Of a stretch of DNA of 64,000 nt, positions 55,886 to 58,466 are shown piece after piece; the stretch's first letter is position 1, and each line of letters starts with the position of its first letter. A program made the translations under genes and the position numbers. The DNA is from Anaeromyxobacter dehalogenans 2CP-C (GTDB lineage: Bacteria > Myxococcota > Myxococcia > Myxococcales > Anaeromyxobacteraceae), in contig NC_007760.1 in the NCBI RefSeq assembly GCF_000013385.1, positions 3,012,001 to 3,076,000 on the forward strand, given 5' to 3'. The notes under the pieces are model-generated. The model did not search any database, had not been told where the DNA came from, and worked only from the letters and a program-made list of their open reading frames with translations.

Positions 55886-56557
55886 ATGGCGCTCATCGGC
55901 AAGGACGACGCGGAGCAGATCCGCACGGAGCTGGAGGGCGCGCTGCAGGGCGACGTCAAGCTGACGCTCGTCGGCCCGAGCGCCCTCGCCCCGCCGGCCC
56001 GGGATCTCACCCCGCAGATCCGCCAGCTGCTGGAGGAGGTGGCGGCGCTCTCGCCGAAGCTCGCGTTCGAGTACCTGGACCTGCCCACCCCCGAGCAGCG
56101 CGAGGCGCTCGGGCTGGCGCCCGACGAGGCCGGCCCGCTCACGATCCTCTCCGGCGCCGCGCGCGGGCGCGTGCGCTACCTCGGCGCGCCCGCCGGCCAC
56201 GAGTTCCCCAACCTCGTCAACGGCATCATCGACGTGTCGCGCGGCGAGTCCGGGCTGTCGCCCGCCTCGCGGGAGGCGCTCGCCCGGATTTCACGCCCAG
56301 TTCACATCAAGGTGTTCTTCACGCCCACTTGACCGTACTGCCCCCAGGCGGCCGGTCTGGCCCATGCCATCGCGGTGGAGAGCGCCCACGTCGTCGCCGA
56401 CGCCATCGAGGCCCAGGAGTTCCCCGACCTCGCGGCGCGGTACCAGGTGATGGGCGTGCCCAAGACGATCGTGAACGACGTCGAGGAGTTCGTCGGCGCC
56501 GTCCCCGAGGACGAGTTCGTGGCGCACGTGCTCCGGGCGGCCGGCGTGCCGGCCTGA
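55886..56557 (+). CDS. predicted selenoprotein: PDO-type glutaredoxin-like protein with U-P-Y-C active site
   Basis: Read through an in-frame TGA at 56330-56332 (codon 149), the protein has 223 residues and two thioredoxin-like folds. The N-terminal fold (about 1-115) has lost its CxxC; the C-terminal fold has VFFTPT-U-PYCP (U149 to C152) and the cis-proline loop MGVPKTIVND. Relatives have C-P-Y-C at this place. The sequence after the TGA can form a hairpin (56347-56368) with a GGTCT loop, as in SECIS elements. Without readthrough the protein stops just before its active site. Frame and length across the TGA are continuous. Start ATG 55886. Sec is inferred; a nonsense mutation is the alternative. 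Confidence 0.85.
56347..56368 (+). promoter_or_regulatory. SECIS-like hairpin after the in-frame TGA
   Basis: GGC-GGCC (56347-56353), loop GGTCT (56354-56358), GGCC (56359-56362), a three-base bulge CAT, and GCC (56366-56368). The apical loop begins 21 bases after the TGA, within the range of bacterial SECIS elements, and GGUCU is the loop sequence that SelB recognises in E. coli fdhF. Confidence 0.7.
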
Positions 56558-56747
56558 GCGGCGGCGGGCGACGCCGGCGCCGCGCGGCGGCCGCGCCTCC
56601 GCCCCTGCCGCCTTGGTGCGTGCCGCGTTCGCGCGTCGCGCGGTCGCGCGGGTGGCCGGTCGTCCGCTCCCCTGGCAGCATCCCCTGCACGCCTCGCCGC
56701 GCCGGGTCGGGGGACCCGGGCAGGCGGGCGCGAGGATCGGGGGATCC

Positions 56748-58466
56748 ATGCAGCCGAAGTCCGCCTTCCGGCGCGCGCACGTCGCGCGCCTCGCCACGCT
56801 CGCGCTCGCCGCCGCGGCGCTCGCGGCCTGCTCGTCCGGAGGCGGCGCGTCCGCGCCGTCCGCGCCGCAGGCTCCGGCCGGCGGCGCGCCGGTCCCGAGG
56901 TCGATCTCGGTCTCGCCGGCGGCCACCACGCTCGCGGCCGGCTTCACCCAGCGGCTCACCGCCATCGCCACCTTCTCCGACGGCTCGAAGCGGGACGTCA
57001 CCGCCACCGCCGCCTGGGAGTCCTCGGCGCCGGCCGCCGCCGCGGTGACCGGGGGCGAGGTCACCGGCGTCGCGCCCGGCGCGGCGACGGTGGGCGCCCG
57101 CTGGTCCGGGCTGCGCGGCACGGCCGAGGTGACGGTCACCTCGGCCGTCCTCCAGTCCGTCGTCGTGACGCCGCCGTTCCCGAGCCTGCCGCTCGGCGCC
57201 GACCTGCAGCTCGCGGCGACCGGGCTGTTCTCCGACGGCAGCGCGCGGGACGTGACCGCGGAGGCGGCCTGGGAGAGCGCGGCGCCTGCGACCGCCGCGG
57301 TGCCCTCGCCCGGCCTGGTGCACCCGGTCGCGCCCGGGGACGCGGCCGTCTCGGCGACGCTGGAAGGCGTGCGCGGCGCGACCACGGTCAGCGTGACGGC
57401 CGCCACGCTCGAGGCGCTGGACGTGTACCCGGGCGCCGCCACCCTGGCCCGCGGCACCTCGACCGCGTTCACCGCGGTCGCCACGTACTCCGACGGCACC
57501 GCCGCCGACCTCACCGCGCAGGCGGCCTGGGCCGCGAGCGGGCCCGAGGTGACGCTCTCGGCGCCCGGCCCGGAGGGCGTGGTGGTCACCGGGGCGGCCG
57601 AGGGCACCGCCACGGTGACGGCGGCGTTCGGCGGCCTGACCAGCGCGGCGACGGTGACGGTCACCGCGGCCGAGCTCACCGGGCTCGCGGTGTCCCCGGC
57701 CGCGCTCGACCTGCCGGTCGGGCTCTCCGGCGCGCTCGAGGCCACCGGCACGTTCTCCGACGGCTCGACCCAGGACCTGACCGCGCAGGTGGCGTGGGTG
57801 TCCTCCGACGCGGCCGTGGCGGCCGCCTCCAACGCGCCCGGCAGCGAGGGGCTCGTCAGCGCGCTCTCCGCCGGCGACGCGACCGTCAGCGCGACCCTGT
57901 TCGGCCGGACCGCGTCGGCGGCGGTGACGGTCCGCGCGGTGGTGCTCCAGTCCATCGCGGTGACGCCCGGGACGGCGTCGGTGCCCGCGGGCTACCAGGT
58001 CCGGTTCCGGGCGACCGGCACCTACAGCGACGGCTCGACGCACGAGCTGACCGGGAGCGCGGCCTGGATCAGCGCCGATCCGGCGATCGCGACCGTGGTC
58101 GCCACCGGGACCGGCGCGGGCACCGCGACCGGCGTGGCGCCCGGGACCACCCGGATCTCGGCGGGGCTGGACGGCGTCGTCGGCGAGGCGACGCTGACGG
58201 TGGGCTCGGCCCGGCTCGTCTCGGTGGCGGTGACGCCGTCGCCGTTCGAGGTGGGGGTGGGCGGGACCGCGCAGCTGACCGCCACTGGCACGTTCAGCGA
58301 CGGCGGCACGCTCGACGTCACGCGGCAGAGCGTCTGGAGCTCCAGCGCCAAGTCCGTCGCGACCGTCTCGCGGGGCGGCGTGGTGACCGGGCTCCGGGCC
58401 GGGGCGGTGACGATCCAGGCGAACCGCGCCGGCCGGAAGGGCCGGGCCGACGGCACGGTCCGGTGA
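56748..58466 (+). CDS. lipoprotein with six BIG2/Ig-like repeats
   Basis: 572 residues. Lipoprotein signal ending LAAC (about residue 28). The mature part is six tandem Ig-like domains of about 85-90 residues, each opening with a form of L-x-S-(I/V)-x-V-(T/S)-P, e.g. LQSVVVTPPF, LTGLAVSPAA, LQSIAVTPGT, then A-T-(G)-T-(F/Y)-SDG and a V-T-x-A-x-W block. BIG2 proteins are cell-surface adhesion or scaffold proteins. Its copies are not identical, so no recent duplication is evident. Confidence 0.9.
   Translation: MQPKSAFRRAHVARLATLALAAAALAACSSGGGASAPSAPQAPAGGAPVPRSISVSPAATTLAAGFTQRLTAIATFSDGSKRDVTATAAWESSAPAAAAVTGGEVTGVAPGAATVGARWSGLRGTAEVTVTSAVLQSVVVTPPFPSLPLGADLQLAATGLFSDGSARDVTAEAAWESAAPATAAVPSPGLVHPVAPGDAAVSATLEGVRGATTVSVTAATLEALDVYPGAATLARGTSTAFTAVATYSDGTAADLTAQAAWAASGPEVTLSAPGPEGVVVTGAAEGTATVTAAFGGLTSAATVTVTAAELTGLAVSPAALDLPVGLSGALEATGTFSDGSTQDLTAQVAWVSSDAAVAAASNAPGSEGLVSALSAGDATVSATLFGRTASAAVTVRAVVLQSIAVTPGTASVPAGYQVRFRATGTYSDGSTHELTGSAAWISADPAIATVVATGTGAGTATGVAPGTTRISAGLDGVVGEATLTVGSARLVSVAVTPSPFEVGVGGTAQLTATGTFSDGGTLDVTRQSVWSSSAKSVATVSRGGVVTGLRAGAVTIQANRAGRKGRADGTVR

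Follow-up and report, generated by a model that had tools for sequence, protein, structure and literature searches.

Classical archaeal protein disulfide oxidoreductases (PDOs) contain two redox centres, and in the N-terminal domain of AhpF the second thioredoxin fold alone carries the active CxxC motif that passes electrons on. Reviews of 2022 and 2026 treat TIGR02187, under the name 'homolog of AhpF N-terminal domain (Grx-like domain protein)', as a predicted selenoprotein family with a UxxC motif, and its selenocysteine (Sec) form was described from Carboxydothermus and Symbiobacterium in a 2006 paper. A catalogue of 2006 recorded Anaeromyxobacter dehalogenans as rich in selenoproteins; the genus is not named for the TIGR02187 family in the 2006 paper, though one of the two thioredoxins listed there may be the gene described here. 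Since both the PDO family and its Sec form have been published before, the present gene extends a known kind of protein by one well-supported member. As far as the literature examined says, Anaeromyxobacter joins the hosts of the Sec form of TIGR02187 as a new group.

We analyzed a window of 64,000 nucleotides from the genome of A. dehalogenans 2CP-C, which is a single contig of 5,013,479 bases. Within it, a reading frame starts with ATG at 55886 and runs for 148 codons to an in-frame TGA at 56330-56332 (codon 149), behind which 74 sense codons lead to a terminal TGA at 56555-56557. Readthrough would give a product of 223 residues with TPT-U-PYC (UPYC at 149-152) and the cis-Pro loop GVPKT. 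A first-pass annotation of this stretch had placed the TGA at the first Cys of a CPYC motif (TPT-TGA-PYC), in a frame that stays open to a normal stop with the cis-Pro loop intact; both points were borne out, with the TGA falling inside the family-profile match and 75 codons, stop included, following it. On sequence grounds, the gene almost certainly encodes a selenocysteine PDO in which TGA 149 is read as Sec. The features are listed in Table 1.

Table 1. Features of the Sec-PDO gene, with positions in the window.
Feature	Positions	Strand	Basis
Gene for 223-residue selenocysteine PDO, TGA predicted to be read through	55886..56557	+	
N-terminal thioredoxin-fold domain, approximately residues 24-120; lacks the CxxC seen in other Myxococcota homologues	55955..56245	+	alignment and model
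C-terminal thioredoxin-fold domain, Thioredoxin_3, UPYC and cis-Pro GVPKT, residues 139-216	56300..56533	+	profile and model
In-frame TGA, residue 149, first position of UPYC, predicted to be read as selenocysteine	56330..56332	+	TGA/Cys alignment
Candidate bacterial SECIS hairpin GGC-GGCC(GGUCU)GGCC-cau-GCC, with conserved rare codons GGT and CAT	56347..56370	+	

Profile searches assigned the product to TIGR02187 ('PDO_seleno_TRX', NCBIfam), with a match over residues 7-217 that is unbroken across the TGA and scores 203.6 bits (cut-off 185; E 2.2e-60); it also has the two fused thioredoxin folds and the C-terminal UxxC of the family. The gene had been called unannotatable-looking at first pass, which was overstated, since it falls within a model that NCBI uses for naming and whose title contains 'seleno'. 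Pfam Thioredoxin_3 matched with E 3e-17 and DUF7088 matched residues 19-78, while the glutaredoxin and thioredoxin profiles PF00462 and PF00085 fitted far more poorly (E 5e-5 and 1e-3, respectively). We rejected a classical single-domain glutaredoxin, given a PF00462 score of 19.5 bits against a cut-off of 22.9 and the presence of two domains. The protein sequence matched the solved PDO structures 1j08 (E 1e-37) and 1a8l (E 5e-37). An AlphaFold2 model with Cys at position 149 contained two thioredoxin folds at a mean pLDDT of 92.8, and its best PDB match was the Pyrococcus furiosus PDO (1a8l), aligned over the whole length with a TM-score of 0.88.

The protein shares with the archaeal and Aquifex PDOs (1a8l, 1j08, 2ayt, 2hls) a two-domain, whole-length fold (TM 0.84-0.88, 29-37% identity) and a CPYC-like C-terminal site, but differs from them in having one redox centre, with Sec predicted at the attacking position; the additional CxxC in the N-terminal domain that marks a classical two-site PDO is absent. 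It resembles the N-terminal domain of AhpF (1zyn, 5h29) in its tandem thioredoxin folds (TM of approximately 0.8 to the model) and in its layout, i.e., a redox motif in the second fold only, but is not fused to a flavoprotein reductase and would have Sec for Cys. Selenocysteine glutaredoxins and thioredoxins (PF00462, PF00085) likewise have a UxxC thioredoxin fold, from which the same chemistry is expected, but are single-domain proteins. With the TIGR02187 Sec family (example ABB15282.1), the protein has in common the UxxC motif and a score over the NCBIfam cut-off; it may differ from the Carboxydothermus and Symbiobacterium proteins in the loss of the N-terminal CxxC, a loss judged against Myxococcota homologues. 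The earlier proposal of a two-domain PDO with Sec therefore stands as to fold and family, but the redox motif is confined to the C-terminal domain.

A homologue search of 195 genomes in the phylum returned three other close matches, all from Anaeromyxobacter (98, 98, and 86% identity) and each with one internal TGA. This TGA is at codon 149 in all four Anaeromyxobacter genomes holding the gene, i.e., A. dehalogenans 2CP-C, strain PSR-1, A. oryzae Red232, and G031. There was no match in the other five Anaeromyxobacter genomes searched, while selA was detected in nine of nine, so the gene is patchy in the genus and the Sec trait general. The concern raised at first pass, that close relatives might have TGC at this site and no conserved hairpin, did not materialize: the codon is TGA in all four and the hairpin is kept. 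In the codons after the TGA, two close relatives each differ from the window by two synonymous and no non-synonymous changes; A. oryzae differs by 13 synonymous and five non-synonymous changes in 75 codons, a count that includes the terminal stop. Such synonymous-biased change is the pattern of translated sequence, unlike that of a dead tail after a stop, and the 75 codons past the TGA are under protein-level purifying selection. Translation table 11 reads TGA as an ordinary stop, and a true stop or a sequencing error at this site would leave a pseudogene or a truncated protein of 148 residues with the N-terminal domain only. This is very improbable: the TGA is common to four separately assembled genomes, the codons behind it are under purifying selection, truncation would leave a product that, by the alignment, lacks any redox motif, and the genome contains Sec machinery and other Sec genes. 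The pseudogene and table-11 stop readings were rejected on this conservation.

Outside the genus, the nearest homologue among the 195 genomes is 46% identical to the window PDO. In agreement with the first-pass expectation of Cys at position 149, this column of the alignment is invariant Cys in all 12 aligned Myxococcota homologues from other genera, within motifs such as TPTCPYC, SPTCPLC, TPSCPYC, and TTCPNC. Because all aligned homologues outside the genus have Cys, the simplest reading would be that Sec took the place of Cys within the Anaeromyxobacter lineage; Cys-to-Sec change was found to be the commonest direction in thiol-redox families (PMC1794560). In six full-length homologues (L029, L030, L032, L033, L034, L043), the N-terminal domain carries a CxxC of its own; in the aligned Anaeromyxobacter sequences this motif is replaced, and UPYC remains as the single redox centre. 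A separate group of Myxococcota homologues (L035, L036, L037, L039, L045), also without the N-terminal CxxC, combines AhpF-like tandem thioredoxin folds with a C-terminal extension of HEAT-like repeats of the type DAALRGDTADLLGQIG...DPNPDVAEIA.

The first-pass reading called for selA, selB, selC, and selD in the genome, and all four were found. Profile searches detected selA (515 bits, cut-off 268), selB (315 bits with its neighbours in frame, cut-off 242), and selD (380 bits, cut-off 125), and Infernal and ARAGORN agreed on a tRNA-Sec with anticodon TCA. In the host genome, five more genes bear an in-frame TGA, all from recognized selenoprotein families: one thioredoxin (WAPW-U-PTC), three peroxiredoxins at G000:C1:321632, 3222791, and 1320672, and selD itself, whose TGA lies close to the N-terminus (HGAG-U-ACK). 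These genes agree with the 2006 catalogue, which lists 11 selenoproteins in A. dehalogenans, including SelD, three peroxiredoxins, and two thioredoxins. A PF00085 search of the genome gave one TGA-bearing match, located elsewhere than the PDO gene. At G000:C1:1319720-1321076 of the host genome, two peroxiredoxin-family genes, one of the Cys and one of the Sec type, adjoin, with approximately 570 bases between them. Sec UGAs can in principle receive some Cys, and this, together with the Cys of relatives at residue 149, would fit readthrough by near-cognate suppression that places Cys or Trp, and not Sec, at the UGA. We regard such suppression as extremely improbable, given the tRNA-Sec (TCA), the full SelA/B/D set, and the retention of a hairpin with rare codons that ordinary suppression does not need. 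Instead, we infer that selenocysteine is inserted at residue 149 in vivo.

The published rule for bacterial SECIS (bSECIS) elements specifies an upper stem of 4-16 bp, a loop of 3-9 nt with G in the first two loop bases, a position 16-37 nt after the UGA, and a minimum free energy of at most -7.5 (loop and spacing rules from PMC13188914). The candidate hairpin, with its loop 21 nt past the UGA, has this form, albeit a form of low specificity: of 2,249 codon positions taken as controls from five genes nearby, 30% also pass, with a GGUC(U) loop in only 0.9%. Because the generic bSECIS form fits so many control positions in G+C-rich DNA, the hairpin alone is weak evidence. Its energy in the window is -10.8 kcal/mol with the outer pairs and -5.8 for the inner 4-bp hairpin alone; the A. 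oryzae hairpin is two pairs longer and reaches -12.1 kcal/mol. In unconstrained folding, the GGUCU hairpin was the predicted fold of the PSR-1 and A. oryzae sequences, and another arrangement was preferred for the first 46-54 nt after the TGA of the window sequence. The GGTCT-loop hairpin reported at first pass is thus present and conserved, but is not the minimum-energy fold of these 46-54 nt. The folding energy of the post-TGA stretch in the window was not unusual (z-score -1.07), and no bacterial SECIS model in Rfam fired on this sequence.

Codon choice inside the hairpin appears to be a stronger sign of a SECIS element than folding energy. Codons ending in T are rare in five window genes (17 of 2,354), as are GGT among Gly codons (2 of 176) and CAT among His codons (0 of 53). 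The GGT of the loop and the CAT of the hairpin are kept in four of four genomes, and are the only A/T-ending codons of the gene so kept; the probability of two T-ending codons in eight by chance is approximately 0.001, as computed after the pattern was seen. Synonymous change was reduced, marginally, in the 20 codons after the TGA (2/19 vs. 60/171; Fisher P = 0.04). Across the hairpin, the run of identical codons was not significantly long by shuffling (P = 0.12). Separately, the gene contains eight A/T-ending codons, five of which (ATT, TCA, CCA, GTT, ACT) lie in the 14 codons preceding the Sec TGA (56288-56329). This cluster is partly common to G031 and PSR-1 and absent from A. oryzae, and possibly reflects either drift or a less structured RNA upstream of the UGA.

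Upstream of the gene is a glycosyltransferase gene, and downstream lie genes for a protein with Big_2 Ig-like repeats and for a type II/IV secretion-type ATPase; no redox partner gene was found in its neighbourhood in the window. The glycosyltransferase and ATPase also flank the PDO gene of A. oryzae. The Big_2 protein (56613-58466), with five bacterial Ig-like repeats and a lipoprotein-like start, is not among the ORFs at the matching place in A. oryzae, where the ATPase directly follows the PDO gene. Since the PDO gene stands apart from redox partner genes, its partners cannot be read from context and its substrates we can only infer.

The product would be a cytosolic two-domain thioredoxin-fold protein of the PDO/AhpF-N-terminal-domain family. 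SelB and tRNA-Sec would decode UGA 149 as selenocysteine, aided by the hairpin just behind it. In the catalytic cycle that we envisage, the Sec149 selenolate of UPYC would attack a substrate disulfide, or an oxidized Sec or Cys of a peroxiredoxin; Cys152 would resolve the mixed selenylsulfide; and thioredoxin reductase or another thioredoxin-like carrier would re-reduce the Sec149/Cys152 pair. The likely role would be a relay to disulfide or selenylsulfide substrates, e.g., Sec peroxiredoxins, and the PDO may be a partner of anaerobic redox metabolism. The host genome contains one thioredoxin reductase with full score, at G000:C1:4563708-4564607, and an electron relay from thioredoxin reductase through the PDO to the Sec peroxiredoxins of the genome can be tentatively suggested. 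More speculatively, loss of the N-terminal CxxC might have been coupled with the Cys-to-Sec change, giving a single-centre PDO that serves as a dedicated Sec-based reductant of Sec peroxiredoxins, i.e., a selenium-to-selenium relay.

While the general picture of selenocysteine use is unchanged by this gene, it adds a well-supported member to the Anaeromyxobacter selenoproteome, namely a predicted Sec PDO that retains one active site only, with rare A/T-ending codons kept inside the putative SECIS hairpin of its gene in a very G+C-rich genome.
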